A stretch of DNA of 64,000 nucleotides. Source: Numidum massiliense. Lineage in GTDB: Bacteria > Bacillota > Bacilli > Thermoactinomycetales > Novibacillaceae. A program made the position numbers and the translations under genes. The notes beneath the pieces are model-generated. The model ran no database searches, was not told where the DNA came from, and was given only the letters and a program-made list of their open reading frames with translations. Below are positions 50,216-63,683 of the stretch, piece by piece. The stretch's first letter is position 1; each line of letters starts with the position of its first letter. The stretch spans positions 186,001-250,000 of the forward strand of contig NZ_CTDZ01000009.1 of assembly GCF_001375555.1 (NCBI RefSeq), read 5' to 3'.

Positions 50216-50335
50216 AATACACTTAACTCGATCGTTAACTTCACGATGCATCTGCTTTTCGGAAAATAAACATTGTAGTCAACGATACGCTATAATAGCA
50301 TTACGATGATGATAGATTACAGCGGGGGATTTTGT

Positions 50336-52342
50336 GTGAAAACGAAGATCGGAGTCATTTCGCCCTCTCCACAGTTTACGGCGCTTGCTCGGAAGGTGTC
50401 GGCGCAGCTCGGCATATCCGTGTTAATCGAGGAGGGGGCGCTAACGCGTGGCCTAACGCGCGCAAAAAAAATGATTGCCGTAGACGACGTCAACACGATC
50501 GTCGCACGCGGTAGCACGGCGACGCTGTTAAAAGAACATCTCGACATTCCCGTCGTCAAAGTAAACGTCACAAACTTCGACCTATTGAAAGCGCTACGCC
50601 AGGCGAAGAAAGACGCGGACGAAGTCGTGTTGCTCGACCACGTCAGCCACTGCCACTTGTACGATTTGCCCTTTATCGAAGAATTGCTTTCCATGCGCAT
50701 CGTGCACGAGTCGTTTCACGATGAAAAAGAGATCGTATACATCATTAAACAGCTGGCGCTCGATCAGGCGAAAGATATGATTGTCGGGACGGCGCAATGT
50801 TTGGCCAACACGGCAATCAACCGAGGCATTCGCTCCCTCGTCGTTCCTTCTTCGCCGGAGGCGATCGTGGAGGCGTTACAGCGTGCTCAGGAGATATCTG
50901 CTGTTTACGAGGAAGAAAAATTGCGGCAGCACCATTTGGAAACGATCATCTCCTATGTGTTTGACGGTGTCATCGCTACCGACCAAGCCGGAAAGGTGAC
51001 GGTGTTTAATGACTTAGCGGCAAAAATGCTCGGTGTACACCGGGAAAGTGTGCGCGGCGAGTACCTCCACAACGCACAATTTCCACAAATAAAGAAGTTG
51101 TTAGGCGATGGTTCGGAAGCGCGGGAGAAAATTGTGTCGTTAGGTCGCAGTCAATTAGTCGTCAATCGGATCAAGCTAAAAGGGCAAGGTGACAGTGCGG
51201 TCATTACGTTCCAAGAAGTGGACGAGGTGATGCAGCAAAACGCCATTTTGCGGAGTGAACTGTACAAACGGCGGTTTTACGCTAAGTATACGTTTGACGA
51301 CATTCGCTGTGCGAGCGGGGCGATGCAAGGTGTGATCGCGATGGCAAAAAAATATGCGCAAAGCGACAGTAACGTGCTCGTCACCGGTGAAAGTGGCACC
51401 GGAAAAGAGCTGATGGCGCAAAGCATCCACAGTGCGAGTGCCCGCCAGGCCAAGCCGTTCATCGCTGTCAACTGTGCGGCCCTTCCCGAAAACCTACTAG
51501 AGAGTGAACTGTTTGGCTATGAGGAGGGGGCATTTACCGGGGCAAAAAAAGGTGGCAAACCAGGTCTGTTCGAGATGGCGCACGGCGGTACCGTCTTTTT
51601 GGATGAAATCGGCGATTTGCCGCTCGCCCTCCAAGCGCGTTTGTTACGCGTGTTGCAAGAAAAAGAAGTGATGCGTATCGGCGGCGACCGCATCGTCCCG
51701 GTTGACGTGCGCGTCATCTCGGCGACGAATAAAGATCTTATCGAAAGTATGCAGCAGGGTAACTTTCGTGTTGACCTGTTTTACCGACTCAACATTTTAC
51801 AAATTCATGTGCCGCCGCTACGCGAGCGCAAGGACGACATTCCGCTACTCGTGCAGCAATTTCTCGCTAAAAATGGGGCTCAAGGCGATGTCGTCGACGA
51901 AAAGCTTATGCAGGTGTTTACGCGCTACGATTGGCCGGGGAACGTACGGGAGCTGGAAAACGTCGTCGAGCGACTCGTCGCACTAGACGGGACGGCGGTG
52001 CCGGACATGGAGAAGATGTTGTTTCCCTGGGAGATCGCCCTGACGGAAGGACGGGTAAGTAACGGAATAGCGACCGAGGAACGGGTGAGCAAAGAAATAG
52101 CGCGTGAAGAACGGGCGAGAGAGGATGGTGCGGAAAGTGAATACCCGGGACGTGAGCGGGGAGTATCGGAGAAACCGATGAATGCCGAAGAGATTACAGT
52201 AAAAATCGGCACGCTTAAGGAGATGGAGCAGCAAATCATTCGCCATTTGGTCGCGCGGTTCGGACAAAACCGGCAAGTGCTAGCCGATCAACTGGGGATC
52301 AGCCGCACGACGTTGTGGAAGAAAGTAAAGACGAACGCCTGA
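50336..52342 (+). CDS. Sigma-54-dependent activator, PrpR type
   Basis: This 668-aa protein starts at GTG 50336 after AGCGGGGG. It has a PrpR-N sensor domain (residues 1-185, [20 protein letters not shown]), a PAS-like domain (about 200-310, [20 protein letters not shown]) and a AAA+ domain. The AAA+ domain shows Walker A GESGTGKE, the sigma-54-contacting GAFTGA loop and Walker [14 protein letters not shown] charged linker (about 580-620) leads to a Fis-type HTH ([20 protein letters not shown]). Such activators bind upstream sites and open -24/-12 promoters. Both elements lie directly downstream, so it most likely drives the acyl-CoA/phenylacetate operon. Confidence 0.92.
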
Positions 52343-52443: not shown

Positions 52444-52460
52444 TGTTTAAATATTAAACA
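52444..52460. promoter_or_regulatory. Upstream activator site 1
   Basis: TGTTTAAATATTAAACA is a perfect inverted repeat with 7-bp arms around ATA. It is about 215 bp upstream of the -24/-12 promoter and is the expected kind of dimer site for a sigma-54 activator. Confidence 0.65.
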
Positions 52461-52465
52461 ATCTA

Positions 52466-52482
52466 TGTTTAAAAATCGAACA
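52466..52482. promoter_or_regulatory. Upstream activator site 2
   Basis: TGTTTAAAAATCGAACA repeats site 1 imperfectly. The two centres are 22 bp apart, two helical turns, so dimers would bind on the same face of the DNA. Confidence 0.6.
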
Positions 52483-52660: not shown

Positions 52661-52677
52661 TTGGCACAGTTGTTGCT
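52661..52677 (+). promoter_or_regulatory. Sigma-54 (-24/-12) promoter
   Basis: TTGGCACAGTTGTTGCT matches the RpoN consensus YTGGCAC-N5-TTGCW, with the invariant GG and GC exactly 12 bp apart. Transcription should start near 52688. That leaves no room for a ribosome site before ATG 52694 and favours GTG 52724 for the next gene. Confidence 0.85.
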
Positions 52678-52723: not shown

Positions 52724-53677
52724 GTGGATCATTATTTGCAACCGACACGGCCACACTTTCAATACGTGACCTATGAAAAAAACGCTCACATCTGCACGAT
52801 TACAATCAACCGACCGGAAGTGTACAATTGCTTAAACTTCCACACGTTGCGGGAAATGACGCGCGCCTTTGAATTGGCGTCGTGGGACGACGACATCGGA
52901 GTCGTCGTATTGACCGGTGCGGGGGACAAGGCGTTTTGCACGGGCGCTGACTTGAAGGAGCAAAACAACGAAGTGATCGATCGCCCGCGCAACTACTGGA
53001 AATGGATGGGTGCCTTCATCGAGGCGCACGAGAAGTTGTTAAACATCGGCAAGCCGACGATTGCCCGTTTGAACGGCATCGTCGTCGGCGGAGGCAACGA
53101 GTTTAACATGAACTGTGATTTGGCGATTATGGCAGACCACGGGTACATCCAGCAAGTGGGCAATTCCCACGGCAGCGTCGCCGCGGGTGGGGCGACGCAG
53201 TGGCTACCGATTACGGTCGGCGACCGGCGGGCGCGGGAAATTTTGTGGCTTAACGAAGAAATTAGCCCACAGCAGGCACTCGACTGGGGACTCGTGAACG
53301 AAGTCGTCCCGCTGAATGAACTCGATCAAGCGGTGCAGCGTATGGCGGAAAAGCTGCTCAATAAGCTGCCCGAGTGTATGCGCTATACGAAGGAACAGAC
53401 CAACTTCTGGAAAAAGTTTTCCTTAAACATGACCGTCGGCCATGCGCGCGACTGGCTCACTGTGCACAGTGGTGCCTATGAGACGTATGAAGCGATGCGC
53501 GCGTTTAACGAGAAGCGGAAGCCGGACTATGCCGCCCTGCGCCAGCGGATGGCGACAGGTGGCTCCTATGAACACTTGTGGGGGGCGCCAATGCTCGACT
53601 GCCAGCAGTGTGGGGCGAAAGATTTACCGGAGCACTTCACCCATTGCGGTGTGTGCGGGGCACCGCTAGCTAAGTAG
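52724..53677 (+). CDS. Crotonase family protein with C-terminal zinc ribbon
   Basis: This 317-aa enoyl-CoA hydratase/isomerase superfamily protein starts at GTG 52724, 7 nt after GGAGGG, consistent with the sigma-54 start point. The CoA-binding core shows TINRPEVYNCLNFHTLREM, VVLTGAGDKAFCTGADLKEQ and NGIVVGGGNEFNMNCDLAIM (oxyanion hole). The longer helical region (NYWKWMGAFIEAHEKLLNIG) recalls ring-hydrolysing relatives such as BamA/Oah. A C-terminal C-x2-C...C-x2-C ribbon (CQQCGAKDLPEHFTHCGVCG) is unusual for the family. First in the catabolic operon, it may be the ring-opening hydrolase, though that is inference. Confidence 0.78.
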   Translation: MDHYLQPTRPHFQYVTYEKNAHICTITINRPEVYNCLNFHTLREMTRAFELASWDDDIGVVVLTGAGDKAFCTGADLKEQNNEVIDRPRNYWKWMGAFIEAHEKLLNIGKPTIARLNGIVVGGGNEFNMNCDLAIMADHGYIQQVGNSHGSVAAGGATQWLPITVGDRRAREILWLNEEISPQQALDWGLVNEVVPLNELDQAVQRMAEKLLNKLPECMRYTKEQTNFWKKFSLNMTVGHARDWLTVHSGAYETYEAMRAFNEKRKPDYAALRQRMATGGSYEHLWGAPMLDCQQCGAKDLPEHFTHCGVCGAPLAK

Positions 53678-53817: not shown

Positions 53818-54687
53818 ATGAAAGACGTTAAACAGTTATTAATCGTCGGCTCCGGCGTTATGGGGCGGGGGATTGCATACGCCAGTGCGCTGGGCTGTTT
53901 TCAGACGACGGTGCAAGACGTGTCCGAGAAGGCACTTAAAAAGGCGCAAGCAGAAATCGAGCGGTATGCGGCAAACGGCGTGTCGCGCGGGAAAATGACG
54001 GCGGAAGAAGCAGAACAACTCAAAGCGCGCATAGCGTATACGCGCGACTTGGCAGAGAGTGCCGCAGCAGCCGACTTTGTTATTGAAGCAGTGCCGGAAG
54101 TGATTGACATTAAGCGCGATGTGTTTGAGACGTTAGATGCGCATGCGCGTCCAGAAGTCATCTTGGCGACGAACACGTCGACGATGAGCCCGACGGAAAT
54201 TGGCTCTTTCACGAAGCGCCCGGAGCGCGTCATTGCGATGCACTTTTTTAACCCGGTGCCGAAGATGAAACTGGTGGAAATTATTCGCGGTCTGGAAACG
54301 AGCGATGACACGAGTGCCGTCGTTAAGCAGGTCGCTGAAGCGATGCAAAAAGAAACAGTCGTCGTGAACGAATTTCCCGGGTTTGTGACGAGCCGCGTAA
54401 GCGCCTTAGTCGGTAACGAGGCGTTCCACATGTTGATGGAAGGCGTCGGCACACCGGAAGAGATCGACAAAGCGATCGAACTCGGACTGAACTATCCGAT
54501 GGGGCCGTTTAAGCTGGGCGACCTCGTCGGGTTGGACACGCGGCTTAATAACTTACAGTACTTGCACGAGACGCTCGGGGAGCGCTTCCGCCCGAGTCCG
54601 CTACTCGTGAAATATGTCAAAGCGGGTCGTTTAGGGCGGAAGACGGGGAAAGGTGTTTACGACTATACAAAGCAGGAAGAGGGGTAG
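53818..54687 (+). CDS. paaH: 3-hydroxyacyl-CoA dehydrogenase
   Basis: This 289-aa NAD-dependent dehydrogenase starts at ATG 53818. It has a Rossmann fold (LLIVGSGVMGRGIAYASALG), the catalytic His in IAMHFFNPVPKMKLVEII with Glu nearby, and the C-terminal dimer domain with GVGTPEEIDKAIELGLNYPM-GPF. It oxidises the 3-hydroxyadipyl-CoA-type intermediate in the lower phenylacetate pathway, feeding the thiolase two genes on. The symbol rests on context; a general 3-hydroxybutyryl-CoA dehydrogenase has the same sequence features. Confidence 0.88.
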   Translation: MKDVKQLLIVGSGVMGRGIAYASALGCFQTTVQDVSEKALKKAQAEIERYAANGVSRGKMTAEEAEQLKARIAYTRDLAESAAAADFVIEAVPEVIDIKRDVFETLDAHARPEVILATNTSTMSPTEIGSFTKRPERVIAMHFFNPVPKMKLVEIIRGLETSDDTSAVVKQVAEAMQKETVVVNEFPGFVTSRVSALVGNEAFHMLMEGVGTPEEIDKAIELGLNYPMGPFKLGDLVGLDTRLNNLQYLHETLGERFRPSPLLVKYVKAGRLGRKTGKGVYDYTKQEEG

Positions 54688-54887: not shown

Positions 54888-55664
54888 ATGACTTTTAACT
54901 ATTTAAGAGTTGACATAAAAGATTGGATCGCGACGGTGACGATTAACCGTCCGGAAAAAAACAATGCGATGAACCCGGACAGCTGGGCCGAACTAGGGGA
55001 GGCGATTAAGCAACTAAACGCAGCCGACGATGTGCGGGTCATCGTCATTACCGGTGCCGGAGAAAAAGCATTCGTCGCCGGAGCCGACATTCAGTGGCTA
55101 CACGAACGAAAGCCACTCGACATTTACGGACTCGCGGTGCAGGATGTGCTGCAAAGTGTGTTTCGTTCGTACAAGCCCGTCATCGCGGCGGTTAACGGCT
55201 ACGCCTTAGGCGGTGGCTGTGAACTCGCCCTCGCCTGCGACATTCGCCTTGCGAGTGACAATGCGAAAATGGGGCAGACGGAAATTAAATTAGGTATTTT
55301 ACCAGCGGGCGGCGGCACACAGCAACTGACGAAAATTGTCGGTTTGGCCAAAGCGAAGGAACTGATCTTGACCGGGGATATCGTCGACGCGGCAGAGGCA
55401 AAGGCGCTCGGTTTGGTCAACCACGTGTATCCGCAAGAGGAATTAATGGATCGCGTGTACGAGTTTGCGCAAAAAATCGCTAGCCGACCGCCCGTGGCGG
55501 TGCGCATGGCGAAAATTGCCTTAAACGAAAGTGCCACTGCCGATTTGGCGAGTGGTCTCGCCTTGGAAAAGTCGTTGCAGGCTTATCTTTTCAGTACAGC
55601 AGATAAACAGGAAGGTACGAAAGCGTTTTTAGAAAAAAGAAAACCGAACTTTACGGGAGAGTGA
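54888..55664 (+). CDS. Enoyl-CoA hydratase
   Basis: This 258-aa crotonase starts at ATG 54888 after GAGGAG. VTINRPEKNNAMNPDSWAEL, VVITGAGEKAFVAGADI-type substrate motifs (here VIVITGAGEKAFVAGADIQW), NGYALGGGCELALACDIRLA and a catalytic Glu region TEIKLGILPAGGGTQQL give a complete active site with both hydratase glutamates. It hydrates an enoyl-CoA in the beta-oxidation-like steps. The thiolase start overlaps its stop region, so the two are in one transcript. Confidence 0.9.
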   Translation: MTFNYLRVDIKDWIATVTINRPEKNNAMNPDSWAELGEAIKQLNAADDVRVIVITGAGEKAFVAGADIQWLHERKPLDIYGLAVQDVLQSVFRSYKPVIAAVNGYALGGGCELALACDIRLASDNAKMGQTEIKLGILPAGGGTQQLTKIVGLAKAKELILTGDIVDAAEAKALGLVNHVYPQEELMDRVYEFAQKIASRPPVAVRMAKIALNESATADLASGLALEKSLQAYLFSTADKQEGTKAFLEKRKPNFTGE

Positions 55665-55669
55665 CACAC

Positions 55670-56875
55670 ATGATGCGGAAGGAAGTTGTCATTGTCGACG
55701 CGGTGCGGACGCCGATCGGCCGCTACCGGGGGGCGCTGAAAAGCGTACGGCCAGACGATTTGGCGGCGCTCGTCATCCGCGAGCTGCTGAAGCGCCAGCC
55801 GGAGGTAGAGCCGGCAGACGTGGAAGATGTCATTTTTGGCTGTGCGAACCAGGCGGGAGAAGATAACCGCAACGTGGCGCGCATGGCGGGACTGTTAGCT
55901 GGGTTACCACTTGCAACGGGGGGCGTTACCGTCAATCGGCTGTGCGGATCGGGCCTCGACGCCGTCAACCAAGCGTATCGCGCGCTCGCGCTCGGCGAAG
56001 GTGACGTGTATATCGGCGGTGGCACGGAAAGTATGACGCGGGCGCCCTTCGTCATGGGAAAGGCGGAAGCGGCCTTTCCGCGCGGCGATGCACACCTATT
56101 TGACACGACGATCGGTTGGCGCTTCATTAACCCGCGCTTGGCGGACATGTACGGCACGTTGAGCATGCCGGAGACGGCGGAGGAAGTGGCGCAGCGGTTT
56201 GGCGTGTCCCGGGAAGCACAAGATCAGTTCGCCTTCGCCAGTCAGCAAAAAACGGCCCGGGCGATGGCGAGTGGTCGCTTTGCCGACGAAATCGTCCCGG
56301 TCGAAATTCGCGACCGCAAAGGCGAAGTGCGTGTCGTCGACGAAGACGAGCACCCGCGTCCCGAGACGACGCTAGAAAAGCTCGCGTCGTTAAAACCGCT
56401 CTTTCCGGATGGGACAGTGACGGCGGGGAACGCCTCAGGCATTAACGACGGGGCATCTGCCGTGTTGCTCATGACGGAACAAAAAGCAGCAGCGCTAGGC
56501 GTGAAGCCGCTTGCCCGCATCGTGACGACAGCGGTGCAAGGGATAGAACCGAACATCATGGGGTTAGGTCCGGTCGGAGCGACGCGTAAGGCGTTAGCTC
56601 GCGCCGGGTTGACGGTGGACGACCTCGGGTTGGTCGAACTGAACGAGGCGTTTGCCTCCCAGTCTCTCGCTTGCATCGAACAGTTGGAACTAAATTCAGA
56701 GAAGGTGAATGTGAACGGCGGGGCGATTGCCCTCGGTCACCCGCTCGGCGCCAGCGGGGCGCGCCTATTGACGACACTCGTGCACGAAATGAAGAAGCAG
56801 GGCGTTCGCTACGGGTTGGCGACGATGTGTATCGGCGTCGGCCAAGGCATTGCGACGATTGTGGAAAAAGTGTAG
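55670..56875 (+). CDS. paaJ: Acetyl-CoA acyltransferase (3-oxoadipyl-CoA/3-oxo-5,6-dehydrosuberyl-CoA thiolase)
   Basis: This 401-aa thiolase starts at ATG 55670, 10 nt after GGGAG. The nucleophile Cys lies in TVNRLCGSGLDAVNQAYRAL, the His motifs are NVNGGAIALGHPLGASGARL and the second Cys is in LATMCIGVGQG. DAVRTPIGRYRGALKSVRPD and the late SMTRAPFVMGKAEAAFPRG are typical of PaaJ/PcaF thiolases. It releases acetyl-CoA twice in the phenylacetate pathway, ending in succinyl-CoA. A terminator at 57002 closes this part of the cluster. Confidence 0.9.
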   Translation: MMRKEVVIVDAVRTPIGRYRGALKSVRPDDLAALVIRELLKRQPEVEPADVEDVIFGCANQAGEDNRNVARMAGLLAGLPLATGGVTVNRLCGSGLDAVNQAYRALALGEGDVYIGGGTESMTRAPFVMGKAEAAFPRGDAHLFDTTIGWRFINPRLADMYGTLSMPETAEEVAQRFGVSREAQDQFAFASQQKTARAMASGRFADEIVPVEIRDRKGEVRVVDEDEHPRPETTLEKLASLKPLFPDGTVTAGNASGINDGASAVLLMTEQKAAALGVKPLARIVTTAVQGIEPNIMGLGPVGATRKALARAGLTVDDLGLVELNEAFASQSLACIEQLELNSEKVNVNGGAIALGHPLGASGARLLTTLVHEMKKQGVRYGLATMCIGVGQGIATIVEKV

Positions 56876-57143: not shown

Positions 57144-58127
57144 GTGGCACAAGTGACACAAGCGGCACAAGTGGCAGAAGTGCCGTTGACGACAGAAGAA
57201 AAAAAGGCGCAGTTTTTGGCGCGTATTGACCGCGGCGAAAAAATCGAAGCGAACGATTGGATGCCCGACGACTACAGGCAGGCACTCATCCGGTTGATCG
57301 CCATGCACGGCATTAGCGAAATTATGGGAGCGTTTCCGGAGAAAGAGTGGGTGCCGAAGGCGCCGACGTTGCACCGCAAACTCGCGATTATGGCGAAGGT
57401 GCAAGATGAGATGGGGCACGGGCAACTGCTCATCCGCGTGGCGGAAGACTTGATGAGGCCGCTCGGGAAAACGCGAGAACACATTATGCAAGATTTGTTC
57501 GCCAAAAGGCAGCGGTTTCACAACGTGTTCCATATGGAGGCGCCGACATGGGCCGATGCGGCAGTGATCGCGTGGCTCGTCGACGGGGCAGCGATTCTCA
57601 CCCAGACGATGTTACTTGAAGGGTCTTACGCACCGTATGCCCGCGCACTGAAGCGCGTTGTGCAAGAAGAGTCGTTTCACGCCAAACACGGGGAAAGCCT
57701 CGTCTTAGCGTTGGCGGAAGGGAATGAGGAACAGCGAGCCATGCTACAAGAGTCGATCAACCGCTGGTGGGAACCGTTGTTAATGTTTTTCGGACCAGCC
57801 TCGAAAAAAGAAGTCGGGACGACGCACCAAGACATTAACACCCGCTACAAACTGCGCAGTAAGTCCAATGAAGAGCTAAGGCAGGAGTTTTTGTCGAAGT
57901 ATGTCCCCCACATTTGGCAAATGGGGATGACCGTTCCTGACGAGGCTCTCCGTTACGACGAGAAAGAAGGCGCTTGGCATTACGCGCAGCCGGATTGGGG
58001 AAAATTCCGGCAAATCATCGACGGCAATGGCCCGTGTTCTGAAGAGAGAATCCGCCTGCGGCAAGCGTCTTACGAATACAACTGCTGGGTGCGGGAGGCA
58101 CTCGGAGCGGAAGCAGACGTCAGTTGA
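57144..58127 (+). CDS. paaA: Phenylacetyl-CoA 1,2-epoxidase subunit A (catalytic)
   Basis: This 327-aa catalytic di-iron subunit starts at GTG 57144 after AAGGTGGTG. The ferritin-like fold carries the metal ligands in GAFPEKEW, AKVQDEMGHGQLLIRVAEDL and VQEESFHAKHGESLV (E-E-x-x-x-H pattern). MEAPTWADAAVIAWLVDGAA is highly characteristic of PaaA. With PaaC and PaaB it converts phenylacetyl-CoA to the 1,2-epoxide using O2 and reducing power. Confidence 0.95.
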   Translation: MAQVTQAAQVAEVPLTTEEKKAQFLARIDRGEKIEANDWMPDDYRQALIRLIAMHGISEIMGAFPEKEWVPKAPTLHRKLAIMAKVQDEMGHGQLLIRVAEDLMRPLGKTREHIMQDLFAKRQRFHNVFHMEAPTWADAAVIAWLVDGAAILTQTMLLEGSYAPYARALKRVVQEESFHAKHGESLVLALAEGNEEQRAMLQESINRWWEPLLMFFGPASKKEVGTTHQDINTRYKLRSKSNEELRQEFLSKYVPHIWQMGMTVPDEALRYDEKEGAWHYAQPDWGKFRQIIDGNGPCSEERIRLRQASYEYNCWVREALGAEADVS

Positions 58128-58150
58128 GTGAGTGGAAAGGAGTAGTCGCG

Positions 58151-58486
58151 ATGAGCACAAACGCAGAGAAGTTTTACGAGGTGTTCGAAGTGTTTGCACG
58201 CCGCGAGCCGACAGCCCCGATGCGTCATTATTTTAGTTTATTGGCACCGAACCACGATATGGCTGTCGTGATGGCGAAGGAAAACTTTTTTCGCCGCGAA
58301 AAGATTTTCGACATTTGGGTCGTCAAACGTAGGGACATCCGCATGTTGACGGAAGAGGAACGGCACATGTTGCCACGTTTGGACAAGCGGTACCGCGAGG
58401 CGGGCGGTTACTCGGGCCATGCGAAGCGGTGGCGGGCACTCGCAGCAGAGACGGCGGGCGAAGGAGGTCAGAAGAATGGGAGCTAA
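58151..58486 (+). CDS. paaB: Phenylacetyl-CoA epoxidase subunit B
   Basis: This 111-aa protein starts at ATG 58151 after AAAGGAG. It matches PaaB: YEVFEVFARREPTAPMRHYF, LAPNHDMAVVMAKENFFRRE and FDIWVVKRRDIRML. PaaB bridges PaaAC units in the epoxidase. It overlaps paaC by 11 nt, indicating tight coupling. It is slightly longer than the E. coli protein (95 aa) because of a C-terminal basic/Gly extension. Confidence 0.93.
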   Translation: MSTNAEKFYEVFEVFARREPTAPMRHYFSLLAPNHDMAVVMAKENFFRREKIFDIWVVKRRDIRMLTEEERHMLPRLDKRYREAGGYSGHAKRWRALAAETAGEGGQKNGS

Positions 58487-59276
58487 TTTAACGGAAGCGA
58501 CGGCGCTTACCGACTTGCTGTTCCAGTTAGCCGACGACGACTTTATTAACGCGTACCGCGGCTCGGAATGGCTCGGATTAGCCCCGCACATTGAAGAAGA
58601 CGTGGCGCTTTCGTCAATTAGTCAAGACACGATGGGGCACGCCGCACTTTATTACGGCTTGCTGGAGAAGTTGGGGCTCGGGAACGCCGACGATCTTAGC
58701 CACTTGCGAGAGGAGGCTCAGTTCAAGAACGCGATCGTGTTGGAGTGGAAAAACGGGCCGGGGAAGTACAACGACCAGCCCCAGTACGACTGGGCATTAA
58801 CCGTCGTTAGGCAGCTTATGTACAACATCGTAAAAAAGATAAGGCTTCGCGCATTGCGACAATCGTCGTACGAACCGCTCGTACACGCAGCAGTGAAAAT
58901 AGCGACGGAGCATACGTACCATCTGATGCATTGGGAATTGTGGTTTAAGCAGTTGATGACGAGCACGCGTCAGGCGCGCCAGCGCATGGAACAAGCTCTT
59001 GCCCGCGTCTGGCCTGAAGTCGGCGGCCTGTTGACCCTCGGGCCAAAAGGCGAGGAGATGGTGAGCGCCGGGCTAATCGAGAGCGAAGCAATGATGAAAC
59101 AGCGCTTTATGAAGGAAATCGAGGCAGTTTTTAGTAACGTCAACTATACGCCCGACGGCGAACCGGGCTTCTCTTCCGGAGACGGGCGCCGTGGGGAGCA
59201 TACAGACGATTTAACGGAGGCGTTACAAACACTTTCGGAAGTGTATCGCATCCGTCCACTAGCGGCGAGTTGGTAA
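58476..59276 (+). CDS. paaC: Phenylacetyl-CoA epoxidase subunit C (structural)
   Basis: This 266-aa ferritin-like subunit starts at ATG 58476, fixed by AAGGAGG at 58461-58467. DLLFQLADDDFINAYRGSEWLGLAPHIEEDVALSS, SQDTMGHAALYYGLLEKLG and ATEHTYHLMHWELWFKQLM match PaaC. Ligand residues are only partly preserved, as expected for the non-catalytic partner. It pairs with PaaA. Confidence 0.94.
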   Translation: MGANLTEATALTDLLFQLADDDFINAYRGSEWLGLAPHIEEDVALSSISQDTMGHAALYYGLLEKLGLGNADDLSHLREEAQFKNAIVLEWKNGPGKYNDQPQYDWALTVVRQLMYNIVKKIRLRALRQSSYEPLVHAAVKIATEHTYHLMHWELWFKQLMTSTRQARQRMEQALARVWPEVGGLLTLGPKGEEMVSAGLIESEAMMKQRFMKEIEAVFSNVNYTPDGEPGFSSGDGRRGEHTDDLTEALQTLSEVYRIRPLAASW

Positions 59277-59368
59277 TGGGAGTCGAATCGTCTGCGTATT
59301 AATAGTGACGATCACTGCTGGAATTGTCACGACACGATAAAAGTCGGCTATTAAAGGGGGTGGTCGCG

Positions 59369-59914
59369 GTGACCGTGCAACAGCCAGCTGGAAACATGGC
59401 GATGAAAGCCACTGTAGAAAAAGCTATTGCGGAAAAAGTCGGCGAGTCACTTAACGACGTGAAAGACCCGGAGATCCCTTCCGTCAGTATCGCTGAGCTC
59501 GGGATGGTTCACCGTGTCGACGTGCGGGACGGTGTCGCCTATGTCGAACTACTACCGACGTTTAGCGGTTGCCCCGCGTTAGGGATCATCGAGCAAGATG
59601 TGAAAGATGCCGTCGGTTGCGTCGACGGGGTGTGCGATGTCACTGTGCGCTTCGTGTTCCACCCGCCGTGGACGACGGACCGCATTACCCCGGAGGGACG
59701 GGAAAACCTGAAAGCGTACGGCATTTCTCCCCCGACGGCTACGCAGCGAGAAGGGGAACCGTGGACCGTCGACTGTCCGTACTGCGGTTCACCGTACACG
59801 ACGCTGGAAAACATTTTCGGTCCGACCGCCTGTCGCAGTTTGCTCTACTGCACAAATTGCAAAAATCCGTTTGAAGCGATGAAACCGGTCGCAACTTGGC
59901 ATGCACACAAATAA
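59369..59914 (+). CDS. paaD: PaaD, epoxidase Fe-S/maturation protein
   Basis: This 181-aa protein starts at GTG 59369 (8 nt after AAAGGGGG); in-frame GTG codons at 59360 and 59375 are alternatives. The N-terminal DUF59/MIP18 domain (LNDVKDPEIPSVSIAELGMV, LLPTFSGCPALGIIEQDVKD) is followed by a C-terminal zinc-ribbon-like part (CPYCGSPYTTLENIFGPTAC, CTNCKNPFEAMKP), as in all PaaD proteins. It is thought to help maturation of the epoxidase metal centre. paaE, which usually follows, is absent. Confidence 0.92.
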   Translation: MTVQQPAGNMAMKATVEKAIAEKVGESLNDVKDPEIPSVSIAELGMVHRVDVRDGVAYVELLPTFSGCPALGIIEQDVKDAVGCVDGVCDVTVRFVFHPPWTTDRITPEGRENLKAYGISPPTATQREGEPWTVDCPYCGSPYTTLENIFGPTACRSLLYCTNCKNPFEAMKPVATWHAHK

Positions 59915-60010: not shown

Positions 60011-60068
60011 GCGCGAATAGATCGGAATAGGCATTGCAAGTACTCAAAATGAGGAGAGGATGGTTGAA

Positions 60069-60380
60069 ATGGTAAAATTGATTGCCCTGTACAAACAGCC
60101 GGAGGACAAGGAAGCGTTTGACAAGCACTATTACGGCCCACACACGGAGGTCACGAAGAAAATTCCTGGCCTGCGCAAAATGAAAGTGACGAAAGTGATC
60201 GGCTCGCCAATGGGAAAAAGCGACTATTATTTGATGTGTGAAATGTATTACGACAGCCTTGAAGCGTTTAAGGAAGCAATGAAGACAGACGAGGCAAAAG
60301 CATCGGGCAAAGACCTCATGTCCTTCGCCGGAAATCTGGTCACGTTGATGATCGGGGAAGAAGTCGATGACGAAGCCTAA
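60069..60380 (+). CDS. EthD family protein
   Basis: This 103-aa ferredoxin-like (dimeric alpha-beta barrel) protein is read from ATG 60069, 10 nt after GAGGAGAGG; ATG 60060 is also in frame. VKLIALYKQPEDKEAFDKHY, the conserved GPHTEVTKKIPGLRKMKV and the C-terminal phenylalanine-containing FAGNLVTLMIGE match EthD. Such proteins accompany oxygenase clusters with an undefined role. It overlaps the following hydratase gene by 14 nt. Confidence 0.85.
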   Translation: MVKLIALYKQPEDKEAFDKHYYGPHTEVTKKIPGLRKMKVTKVIGSPMGKSDYYLMCEMYYDSLEAFKEAMKTDEAKASGKDLMSFAGNLVTLMIGEEVDDEA

Positions 60381-61143
60381 CTTTATTAAAACGTCGGTAG
60401 ATGGCGGGATCGGGCGGGTTGTCCTTAACCGCCCGGAAGTGCTCAACGCGCTCAACCGGGGGATGGTGACGGAAATTGTCACTGCGTTGGAAGCGTTTGA
60501 CCAGAATGACGACGTGCGCGTCATTGTGCTGTCGGGAGAAGGACGCGCCTTTGCCGCCGGGGCAGACATCGCGGAGATGGCGGCGGAGGATCCGCTCGAT
60601 TTGGAACTGGCCGATCCGTTTGCGGTGTGGGACCGCATCGGCAAGGTGAAAAAGCCGCTCATTGCCGCAGTGCACGGTTTAGCTTACGGCGGCGGCTTTG
60701 AACTCGCCTTAGCATGTGACCTCATTTTTGCTGCACACGACGCCAAATTTGCTTTTCCGGAAGTGAAGCTCGGCGTCATGCCCGGCGCCGGAGGAACGCA
60801 GCGGTTAACGAAAGTGATGGGTAAAGCGAAAGCGTTGGAATGGCTCTGGTTAGGTGAACCGATGTCTGCAAAAGAGGCGTGTCATTTCGGGGTCGTCACT
60901 CGTGTCGTCGCGGCCGAAGGGCTCATGGACGAAGTGCACGACTTTGTCCGCCGTTTAACGCAGCAAGCGCCTTTGTCGTTACGCTTAATTAAGGAAGCGG
61001 TACATAAGGCGATCGACTACCCCCTCGACGAAGGGATGCAGTTTGAACGGAAAAACTTTTACCTCCTCTTTGCTTCTGCGGATCAAAAGGAAGGCATGCG
61101 CGCCTTTCTCGAGAAGCGCAAGCCGCTGTTTAAAGGGGAATGA
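60367..61143 (+). CDS. paaF: Enoyl-CoA hydratase/isomerase
   Basis: This 258-aa crotonase starts at ATG 60367, overlapping the EthD gene. VVLNRPEVLNALNRGMVTEI, VLSGEGRAFAAGADIAEMAA, HGLAYGGGFELALACDLIFA and FPEVKLGVMPGAGGTQRLTK provide both hydratase glutamates. It is the likely 2,3-dehydroadipyl-CoA hydratase PaaF. The symbol rests on context, since the hydratase at 54888 has an equally good active site. Confidence 0.82.
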   Translation: MTKPNFIKTSVDGGIGRVVLNRPEVLNALNRGMVTEIVTALEAFDQNDDVRVIVLSGEGRAFAAGADIAEMAAEDPLDLELADPFAVWDRIGKVKKPLIAAVHGLAYGGGFELALACDLIFAAHDAKFAFPEVKLGVMPGAGGTQRLTKVMGKAKALEWLWLGEPMSAKEACHFGVVTRVVAAEGLMDEVHDFVRRLTQQAPLSLRLIKEAVHKAIDYPLDEGMQFERKNFYLLFASADQKEGMRAFLEKRKPLFKGE

Positions 61144-61288: not shown

Positions 61289-62062
61289 ATGTTTGCAACG
61301 ATCCGCTATACGGTCGATAACAACGTTGCCTGGATCGCGCTTAACCGTCCGGAGACGTTGAATGCGTTCACGGCCGAGATGAATCGCGAGATGACGGCAG
61401 CACTAAAACAGGCGGGTAAAGACAGAACGGTACGCGGCGTCGTCCTTACGGGTGAAGGGCGAGGGTTTTGTTCGGGCCAAGACCTCGCCGACGTGCAAGA
61501 TGTGGACGATTATGCCGTCGTGTTGCGCGAGCGATACAACCCGATGATGACGGCGCTGGCGGCTCTAGAGAAACCCGTCGTCGCCGCCGTCAACGGAACG
61601 GCGGCAGGGGCGGGCATGAGTCTCGCACTCGCCTGTGATTTTCGCTTGCTGTCGGAACGAGCGAGCTTTATTAACGCGTTTATTCACGTTGGGCTCATCC
61701 CCGATTCGGGCAACCTGTACTACTTGACCCGATTAGTCGGACAGGCGAAGGCACTTGAGTTAGCAATGCTCGGCGAGAAGGTGAACGCGGAAGAAGCGCT
61801 GGCATTGGGGCTCGCGACGCGCGTCGTCCCTGCCGAAACGTGGGAAGCGGACGTACGTGCATTTGCGGAGCGACTGGCGAGGATGCCGACTAAAGCACTC
61901 GGCCTCATTAAGCGCTATGTGCGGCTAAGTTGGGAATCCGATTTCACGGAAATGCTCGTTCATGAAGCAGAGGCACAGCGCATTGCCGGACGCTCGGCTG
62001 ATCACAAGGAAGGCATCCAAGCGTTTCTGGAAAAGCGCAAGCCGCAGTTTAGCGGCAACTAG
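61289..62062 (+). CDS. paaG: Enoyl-CoA isomerase/hydratase
   Basis: This 257-aa crotonase starts at ATG 61289 after GAGGGAGGGGGG. It shows the PaaG pattern: IALNRPETLNAFTAEMNREM, VLTGEGRGFCSGQDLADVQD, NGTAAGAGMSLALACDFRLL and INAFIHVGLIPDSGNLYYLT. The first hydratase Glu is replaced (AGAGMSLAL) and the Asp of PDSG is kept, as in PaaG isomerases. PaaG converts the 1,2-epoxide to the oxepin (seven-membered ring) CoA ester. This gene fits that role best among the four crotonases here. Confidence 0.88.
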   Translation: MFATIRYTVDNNVAWIALNRPETLNAFTAEMNREMTAALKQAGKDRTVRGVVLTGEGRGFCSGQDLADVQDVDDYAVVLRERYNPMMTALAALEKPVVAAVNGTAAGAGMSLALACDFRLLSERASFINAFIHVGLIPDSGNLYYLTRLVGQAKALELAMLGEKVNAEEALALGLATRVVPAETWEADVRAFAERLARMPTKALGLIKRYVRLSWESDFTEMLVHEAEAQRIAGRSADHKEGIQAFLEKRKPQFSGN

Positions 62063-62162
62063 CTTTTTTCAGTAAAGATTTTGTAGAGGACGTAGTAAAA
62101 GACTTATAGGTTACGAGAATAGTTGTTAAACATCATCATCACCATCTATAGGAGTGAATCCA

Positions 62163-63683
62163 TTGAATGAAGTAGTAGAAAAAGCACCTGACGTACAACC
62201 GATGAAACGCGACGCGTACAAAATGATCATCGGCGGGGAATCAGTCGACGCGATCTCCGGCGAGACGTTTACGACGTACAATCCCGCTACAGGGAAGGCT
62301 CTCGCACAAGTTCCACGTGCAGACAAAGAAGATGTCGACCGCGCAGTGAAAGCGGCGCGCGACGCGTTCGAAAATGGCAAGTGGCGCCGTTACCCCGTTG
62401 GGAAGCGGGCGCGCGTCATGAACAAAATCGCCGCGATGATGCGCGCCCGTTTCGATGAACTCGTCGAACTGGAAGTGTTGAACAGCGGCAAAACAGTGAC
62501 AGCGGCACAAGGGCAAGTCATGCAGGCGATTGAGAATTTCGAGTTTTTCGCAGGAGCAATCGTCGGCTTTCGCGGGCACGTCAACAACATGCCGGGTCCT
62601 TTTCACAACTATACGTTAAAAGAGCCGATCGGCGTCGCGGGGCAAATTATTCCGTGGAACTATCCGTTCATGATGGCGGCGTGGAAAGTGGCGCCAGCGA
62701 TCGCTGTCGGCTGTTCCGTCGTGTTAAAGCCAGCTAGCCTGACTCCGATTACAGCGATCGTAATGACGGAAATATGCCATGAAGCCGGCGTGCCGGCGGG
62801 GGTCGTCAACATCGTCACCGGGCCAGGTTCTAGTATCGGTTCGTACCTCGTCGAACACGAAGGAATTGATAAAATCGCCTTTACCGGGGAAACGGAAACC
62901 GGTAAGGACATTATGGCACGCGCCTCTAACACCCTTAAGCGCGTCACGCTCGAACTCGGCGGCAAGTCGCCGAACCTCATTTTCCCGGACGCCGATTTGG
63001 ACGGCGCCGTCGACGGGTCGATCTTCGGCATTTACTACAACACGGGGCAGTCGTGTGAAGCGCGTTCCCGCTTACTCGTGCACGAAAGTATTTACGACGA
63101 ATTTGTCGAGAAGTTCATCGCCAAGACGAAAAAGTTAACACTCGGGAACCCGCTAGCGAAAGAAACGCACGTCGGGGCAGTGATTAGTCAAGGGCAACTC
63201 GACGTCATCGACGGCTATGTGCAATCGGCGAAAGAGGAAGGAGCGACGGTTGCCGTAGGCGGTCGCACGGTGAAAGTGGACGGATTTGAAGGTGGCTACT
63301 GGTATGCCCCGACGGTCATTACGAACGTGACGCGTGACATGAAAGTCGTTCAAGAGGAAATCTTCGGGCCGGTCGTCGTCGTCATGCCGTTTAAAGATGA
63401 GCGCGAAGCGATTGCATTGGCGAATGACACGAAGTACGGATTAGCTGCCGCGATTTGGGCCAAAGACCAGGGGCTCATCCACCGCGTCGCCGGTGGGATT
63501 CAGGCGGGCACGATTATGGTCAACTCCCCGTTCTCTGCGTTCCCGGGCACGCCCTTCGGCGGGTATAAACAGTCGGGCTTTGGTCGCGAGCTATCGATCG
63601 AAGCGCTCGAGTTGTATACGGAAACGAAGAGCATCCTCTCCTACACGGGGCGGCGCCCGCTCAATCCGTTCGGCATTGAGTGA
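62163..63683 (+). CDS. Aldehyde dehydrogenase of the phenylacetate cluster
   Basis: This 506-aa NAD(P)-dependent aldehyde dehydrogenase starts at TTG 62163, 8 nt after AGGAG. It has the NAD site FTGETETGKDIMARAS, general base Glu in RVTLELGGKSPNLIF and nucleophile Cys in YYNTGQSCEARSRLLV. It would oxidise 3-oxo-5,6-dehydrosuberyl-CoA semialdehyde, the job of the N-terminal half of E. coli PaaZ. It stops at normal ALDH length and has no MaoC hydratase domain, so ring opening must be done by another protein. Confidence 0.88.
   Translation: MNEVVEKAPDVQPMKRDAYKMIIGGESVDAISGETFTTYNPATGKALAQVPRADKEDVDRAVKAARDAFENGKWRRYPVGKRARVMNKIAAMMRARFDELVELEVLNSGKTVTAAQGQVMQAIENFEFFAGAIVGFRGHVNNMPGPFHNYTLKEPIGVAGQIIPWNYPFMMAAWKVAPAIAVGCSVVLKPASLTPITAIVMTEICHEAGVPAGVVNIVTGPGSSIGSYLVEHEGIDKIAFTGETETGKDIMARASNTLKRVTLELGGKSPNLIFPDADLDGAVDGSIFGIYYNTGQSCEARSRLLVHESIYDEFVEKFIAKTKKLTLGNPLAKETHVGAVISQGQLDVIDGYVQSAKEEGATVAVGGRTVKVDGFEGGYWYAPTVITNVTRDMKVVQEEIFGPVVVVMPFKDEREAIALANDTKYGLAAAIWAKDQGLIHRVAGGIQAGTIMVNSPFSAFPGTPFGGYKQSGFGRELSIEALELYTETKSILSYTGRRPLNPFGIE

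Follow-up and report, generated by a model that had tools for sequence, protein, structure and literature searches.

The stretch analysed here, called the window, comprises 64,000 nucleotides of Numidum massiliense (assembly GCF_001375555.1, contig NZ_CTDZ01000009.1, positions 186,001-250,000, forward strand), and positions are counted within it; labels of the type L### and G### denote loci and genomes of the comparison set. Our subject is a crotonase related to the ring hydrolases Oah (BamA) and BadI, with a C-terminal zinc ribbon (Table 1). The protein likely functions as a ring hydrolase. The cluster encodes four crotonases (52724, 54888, 60367 and 61289), this one starting with GTG at 52724, a start backed by the N-termini of its relatives (MDHFL...) and an upstream GGAGG. 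The gene heads a sigma54 transcription unit in which it is followed by paaH, an enoyl-CoA hydratase (ECH) gene and paaJ. The paaABCD operon begins 268 bp after paaJ and is separate from this unit, so that the crotonase does lead an operon, as the first-pass annotation had it, but its own and not that of paaABCD.

Table 1. Positions of the features discussed, counted within the window unless a locus label is given.
Feature	Position	Strand	Evidence or remark
Sigma54-dependent activator (PrpR_N, PAS, AAA+, Fis-type helix-turn-helix)	50306..52342	+	PF00158 5e-71, PF06506 1.6e-29
Palindrome TGTTTAAATATTAAACA, candidate activator binding site	52444..52460	+	TGTT-N7-12-AACA motif
Second palindrome TGTTTAAAAATCGAACA, candidate activator binding site	52466..52482	+	TGTT-N7-12-AACA motif
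Predicted -24/-12 sigma54 promoter TGGCACAGTTGTTGCT	52662..52677	+	sole zero-mismatch match in window
Oah/BadI-like crotonase with C-terminal zinc ribbon (main finding)	52724..53677	+	317 aa
Glu126 codon, rat crotonase Glu144 equivalent	53099..53101	+	Glu in 50/50 homologues
His149 codon, clade-diagnostic residue	53168..53170	+	His/Arg in aerobic clade, Val in benzoyl-CoA-reductase clade
Zinc ribbon Cys293-x2-Cys296-x11-Cys308-x2-Cys311	53600..53656	+	see text for conservation
3-Hydroxyacyl-CoA dehydrogenase (PaaH-like), module gene 2	53818..54687	+	NF006722 471 bits, over cut-off
Enoyl-CoA hydratase, module gene 3	54888..55664	+	both catalytic Glu kept
3-Oxoadipyl-CoA-type thiolase (PaaJ/PcaF), module gene 4	55661..56875	+	TIGR02430 600.8 bits, over cut-off
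PaaA, phenylacetyl-CoA epoxidase	57144..58127	+	TIGR02156 426 bits, cut-off 280
PaaB	58124..58486	+	TIGR02157 78.5 bits, slightly below cut-off 85
PaaC	58419..59276	+	TIGR02158 242 bits; true start probably somewhat downstream of ORF start
PaaD	59324..59914	+	TIGR02159 190 bits
EthD-family protein	60060..60380	+	TIGR02118 113.5 bits
Enoyl-CoA hydratase, PaaF candidate	60367..61143	+	both catalytic Glu
PaaG-like epoxide isomerase	61289..62062	+	TIGR02280 271 bits, best family
Aldehyde dehydrogenase without MaoC domain (PaaZ-ALDH/PacL role)	62154..63683	+	PF00171 only
FlK-type hotdog loci of the order	L039:18480-18872 and equivalents at L040-L044, L046-L048, L050-L052, L055		PF22636

The protein matches Pfam ECH_1 (E=4.6e-55), and an AlphaFold model based on 26 alignment rows (pLDDT 86) predicts a complete crotonase fold (VIA-align Z ~34). 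The extended helical region that the first-pass annotation had likened to BamA/Oah is real, being an Oah-like C-terminal extension, and kinship to the ring hydrolases is supported. The C-x2-C...C-x2-C tail described for this fourth crotonase was likewise borne out as a putative zinc ribbon. Pfam zinc-ribbon models score the tail below their cut-offs; since all four cysteines are kept in 47 of the 50 homologues, from four phyla, it is not a chance feature. Of the two catalytic glutamates of a classical enoyl-CoA hydratase, only Glu126 is present, while the position of rat Glu164 is taken by Gly146, as in 50/50 homologues. Because of this glycine the protein is not an ordinary hydratase on its sequence. 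The crotonase fold and the beta-oxidation genes nearby would suit a standard beta-oxidation enzyme, either an enoyl-CoA hydratase or an isomerase, but such a function is very improbable in view of the missing glutamate, the two genuine hydratases and the PaaG that the cluster already holds, the Oah-like kinship, and the benzoyl-CoA reductase neighbourhoods of the relatives.

The crotonase family comprises 50 loci from Bacillota, Chloroflexota, Actinomycetota and Thermoplasmatota. A genome scan yielded 23 relatives, with identities of 74-81% in Bacilli, 65% in Actinomycetota, 48-60% in Chloroflexota and 48% in Thermoplasmatota, and further ones were added from phylum samples. In the maximum-likelihood tree, in which L013 and L121 have long branches, 12 Bacilli (window included), 8 Chloroflexota with paa contexts and one Actinomycetota sequence form an aerobic clade (support 100/99). 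All 21 members of this clade have His or Arg at position 149, versus Val in all 29 remaining crotonases; Ala75, at the oxyanion hole, also marks the aerobic clade, with Gly in nearly all remaining homologues.

The Val149 clade is found in the surroundings of anaerobic benzoyl-CoA degradation. BcrB/BcrC-like genes adjoin the crotonase gene in 23 loci and a BamB-like gene in three, and in four anaerobic-type Bacillota the crotonase lies inside benzoyl-CoA reductase clusters. At L061 its neighbours are BzdN and BzdO, which exceed their cut-offs at 525 and 518 bits, a Had-like dehydrogenase (284 bits) and an enoyl-CoA hydratase, and at L062-L064 it adjoins ferredoxin-type subunits and an AFOR-family oxidoreductase that is BamB-like. 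In Chloroflexota and one Thermoplasmatota metagenome-assembled genome (MAG) the neighbours are BcrB/BcrC-like, Had-like and Dch-like genes, with twin BcrA/D-type ATPase genes also nearby in Chloroflexota; the best families of these neighbours are those of benzoyl-CoA reductase (B, C, A and Had in the Chloroflexota), with scores under the cut-offs. None of the 28 crotonase-bearing genomes searched, many of which are incomplete MAGs, has an Oah over cut-off. Because of this gene context and the lack of an Oah over cut-off, the Val149 clade very likely does the job of Oah. As a separate observation, a PaaX-family repressor gene lies directly 5' of a long Chloroflexota crotonase gene at L015-L023, most of these loci also having MaoC, SDR, Had-like and indolepyruvate-oxidoreductase-like genes alongside.

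In the aerobic clade, the Bacilli genes belong to a sigma54-controlled module. A homologue of the activator is encoded beside the crotonase in 11/11 Bacilli relatives, and a sigma54 box with 0-1 mismatches lies just upstream of the gene in the same number. In 11 of 12 loci the motif of the two palindromes lies 5' of this box, against a background of 0.03 per 350 bp, and no sigma54 box was found ahead of paaA in the loci compared. The module is ordered as sigma54 activator, crotonase, AtoE-type permease, PaaK-like CoA ligase, MDR dehydrogenase, PaaH and ECH, often with PaaJ; those of the window and of Bacillus piscicola have no ligase, permease or MDR gene. Elsewhere in the window genome, candidates for the module-type CoA ligase were only PaaK-like proteins (34-35%) and were rejected. 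The window PaaH clusters with the PaaH proteins of the modules (SH-aLRT 94). A second paaH or paaJ was seen neither in the window paa operon nor just beyond it; with no copies close by, the operon probably borrows the beta-oxidation genes of the module. Just past the window, at contig positions 250242-250667 (L038:1243-1668), the paa locus is completed by a PaaI-like 4HBT thioesterase gene, PaaK and PaaX, all after the aldehyde dehydrogenase gene.

We consider it somewhat more probable than otherwise that the crotonase is a hydrolase like Oah and BadI, which would open the ring of a cyclic oxo-acyl-CoA and pass its product into the shared PaaH/PaaF/PaaJ route. The enzyme would bind a cyclic oxo- or enol-acyl-CoA, to which Glu126 and the oxyanion hole would add water, and ring cleavage would yield a linear CoA ester of the dicarboxyl- (or oxo-) type. 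The 3-hydroxyacyl-CoA dehydrogenase, enoyl-CoA hydratase and 3-oxoadipyl-CoA-type thiolase of the module would then take the ring-opened product through beta-oxidation. In Bacilli the substrate is most likely a carboxyl-CoA with an alicyclic or partly reduced ring, given the CoA ligase, permease and alcohol dehydrogenase that are present in addition in most of their modules. Phenylacetate degradation may also supply the substrate as a ring intermediate, and oxepin-CoA or its seven-membered shunt product is a further possibility. Two points speak against the proposed hydrolase as described. The window module has neither ligase nor MDR gene and the ligases of the genome are of the PaaK type only, so that an alicyclic CoA ester has no evident source. 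Moreover, Chloroflexota members of the aerobic clade lie inside phenylacetate operons without ligase or MDR genes, an arrangement that speaks more for a phenylacetate intermediate.

Among these Chloroflexota, the crotonase gene is directly upstream of ALDH-paaABCD-EthD at L076 and L077, and at L113, L116, L118, L119 and L121 it lies between EthD and paaF-paaG, followed by paaH and, in some of these loci, accompanied by paaJ and ALDH (aldehyde dehydrogenase); at L014 it adjoins an EthD gene. The proteins of L076 and L077 have no ribbon, and because of two such sister proteins the ribbon probably has a role in assembly and not in catalysis. Some further observations concern the paa loci as such. 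An EthD-family gene is part of most Bacillota paa operons seen and is directly 5' of the crotonase gene in Chloroflexota loci. Close to paaF, the crotonase-less Chloroflexota paa operons L135-L139 include genes for an alpha/beta-hydrolase and a flavin-reductase-like protein, neither of which was seen in the crotonase-bearing sister loci. A further PaaA-like protein, a weak match (E ~1e-30 to 1e-39), occurs widely (G015:C1:391011, G010:C3:342969, G664:C151:24073 and many Chloroflexota), and in G664 it lies at most 7 kb from the crotonase.

It is in doubt which enzyme opens the ring where PaaZ has no hydratase (PMC4498308), and the first-pass annotation had proposed that the crotonase, as an oxepin-CoA hydrolase, replaces the PaaZ hydratase. 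Its premises hold. The aldehyde dehydrogenase of the cluster has no MaoC domain, and the sole PF01575 match in the 3.76-Mb genome (29.5 bits; hotdog families beyond PF01575 were not searched) is FapR, because this 199-aa protein has an N-terminal DNA-binding stretch and lies beside plsX. The location of aerobic-clade genes inside paa operons and the residues His/Arg149 and Ala75, common to this clade unlike the benzoyl-CoA clade, are consistent with the proposal, as is co-occurrence with PaaA: this protein was found in 9 of 11 crotonase-bearing Bacilli versus 10 of 393 phylum-sample genomes without crotonase (Fisher 7e-12), and in 10 of 28 crotonase-bearing Chloroflexota versus 36 of 372 without (p=4e-4), both values being inflated by taxonomic sampling. 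Several PaaA genomes with the crotonase have no PF01575 match (e.g. G443, G447, G469, G482, G501 and G560).

Against this, PaaA is present in 33 of 42 genomes of the window's order but the crotonase in the window genome only, which leaves 32 other PaaA genomes without it, at least six of which also have no PF01575 match; in the order, G006-G009, G019, G020 and G039 show no such match at E<=0.001. G436, of the same class, has a window-type paa operon and no crotonase, and several MaoC-less PaaA Chloroflexota, G850, G818 and G672 among them, do without it too, as do sister operons, likewise MaoC-less, of the crotonase-bearing Chloroflexota loci. A replacement of the PaaZ hydratase would be expected in every genome with PaaA and without MaoC, and the crotonase is not found in all of these. 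A simple presence-absence trade-off between MaoC and crotonase was rejected, MaoC-less and MaoC-bearing PaaA genomes each including both states. Conversely, two crotonase-bearing Bacilli have no PaaA over cut-off, and the Bacilli gene is controlled by sigma54 in a module apart from paaA, usually with its own ligase and permease. Since the crotonase is absent from many PaaA genomes, several of them MaoC-less, and from the G436 operon, it is associated with phenylacetate degradation, yet not required for it, and it is not the general answer for phenylacetate ring opening in these bacteria. For the window protein three options are live, among them that of an oxepin-CoA hydrolase, which is rather unlikely. 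Apart from the crotonase, 13 paa operons of the order encode a 130-aa FlK-type hotdog protein directly after ALDH or PaaJ (Table 1), several of them in genomes without MaoC hydratase; it is a candidate oxepin-CoA hydrolase or thioesterase.

By analogy with BadI, the crotonase might instead be a salvage enzyme that opens the shunt product 2-hydroxycyclohepta-1,4,6-triene-1-carboxyl-CoA as a cyclic beta-oxo acyl-CoA, followed by PaaG, PaaF, PaaH and PaaJ. The seven-membered shunt product is formed and inhibits PaaZ (PMC4498308; PMC13186573), and salvage would account for a crotonase that is optional yet tied to PaaA, as well as for the permease and ligase of the Bacilli, by re-uptake of the excreted acid. 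We regard this as improbable, the two module-bearing Bacilli without PaaA over cut-off being a point against it.

Taken more broadly, a single zinc-ribbon family may open rings in both anaerobic and aerobic metabolism, which we put forward tentatively as a possible if unlikely view: the Val149 clade would stand in for Oah/BamA in benzoyl-CoA pathways of Chloroflexota, Bacillota and Thermoplasmatota, and the His/Arg149 clade would have been re-tuned to oxepin-CoA or the seven-membered shunt product in aerobic phenylacetate catabolism. The literature (PMC9007349, PMC4498308) names as an open question how oxepin-CoA is opened by bacteria with a PaaZ devoid of its hydratase domain, and the family offers one concrete candidate, with conserved residues and in cultivable Bacilli. 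As bamA/oah is used as a marker gene of anaerobic aromatic degraders (PMC7701123), surveys of this kind could overlook lineages whose benzoyl-CoA reductase clusters contain the crotonase family and which have no canonical Oah.

In comparison with known systems, the NCBIfam families that fit the window crotonase best, BadI, MenB and Oah, each give a score far below the cut-off, and for its Chloroflexota and Bacillota relatives the best family is Oah, again below cut-off; membership of BadI, MenB, Oah or NF046063 was rejected on these low scores. With Oah/BamA the family shares the fold, the C-terminal extension and, in its relatives, a place in benzoyl-CoA reductase clusters where Oah would be expected. 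It differs by the zinc ribbon, by an aerobic clade with His/Arg149 and by TIGR03200 scores far below the cut-off of 464 bits (window 162, L061 201 and L015, the best relative, 226). The anaerobic clade has benzoyl-CoA reductase, Dch and Had neighbours, whereas those of the window gene are PaaH, ECH, PaaJ and paaABCD. Plasmid searches for canonical Oah/BamA sequences yielded only BadI-like and MenB-like proteins, and a literature search with little coverage of subscription journals turned up no description of a zinc-ribbon Oah. To BadI (2-ketocyclohexanecarboxyl-CoA hydrolase) and BadI-like plasmid genes the crotonase is 38-42% identical, and a pcaF-type thiolase occurs in the clusters of both. 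BadI (TIGR03210) is also its best NCBIfam score, yet at 173 bits against a cut-off of 467.6, and the BadI rows have Val and Asp where the window protein has Glu126 and Ala153, and no zinc ribbon. By these sequence features, the protein is neither a normal hydratase nor BadI. MenB (DHNA-CoA synthase) leads the PDB matches by sequence and by Foldseek (34-38% identity) but has Asp at the Ala153 position, no ribbon and another pathway. The hydratase domain of PaaZ is of the MaoC/hotdog fold, unrelated to the crotonase fold, and would be alike only in the role that the first-pass annotation proposed. A crotonase-fold oxepin-CoA hydrolase is not a new idea, since fitness data had led to the proposal of one that acts next to a MaoC-less ALDH in place of the PaaZ hydratase (Price 2022, PMC9007349) and NCBIfam lists NF046063, 'oxepin-CoA hydrolase, alternative type' (cut-off 300 bits). 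That family is outside the 25 best of the window crotonase, the last of which scores 111 bits, and its enzyme has Ser118 in place of the catalytic Glu and no reported ribbon, while Glu126 is invariant here. Ring-opening crotonases as such are already known, and the zinc-ribbon form is an overlooked variant of them.
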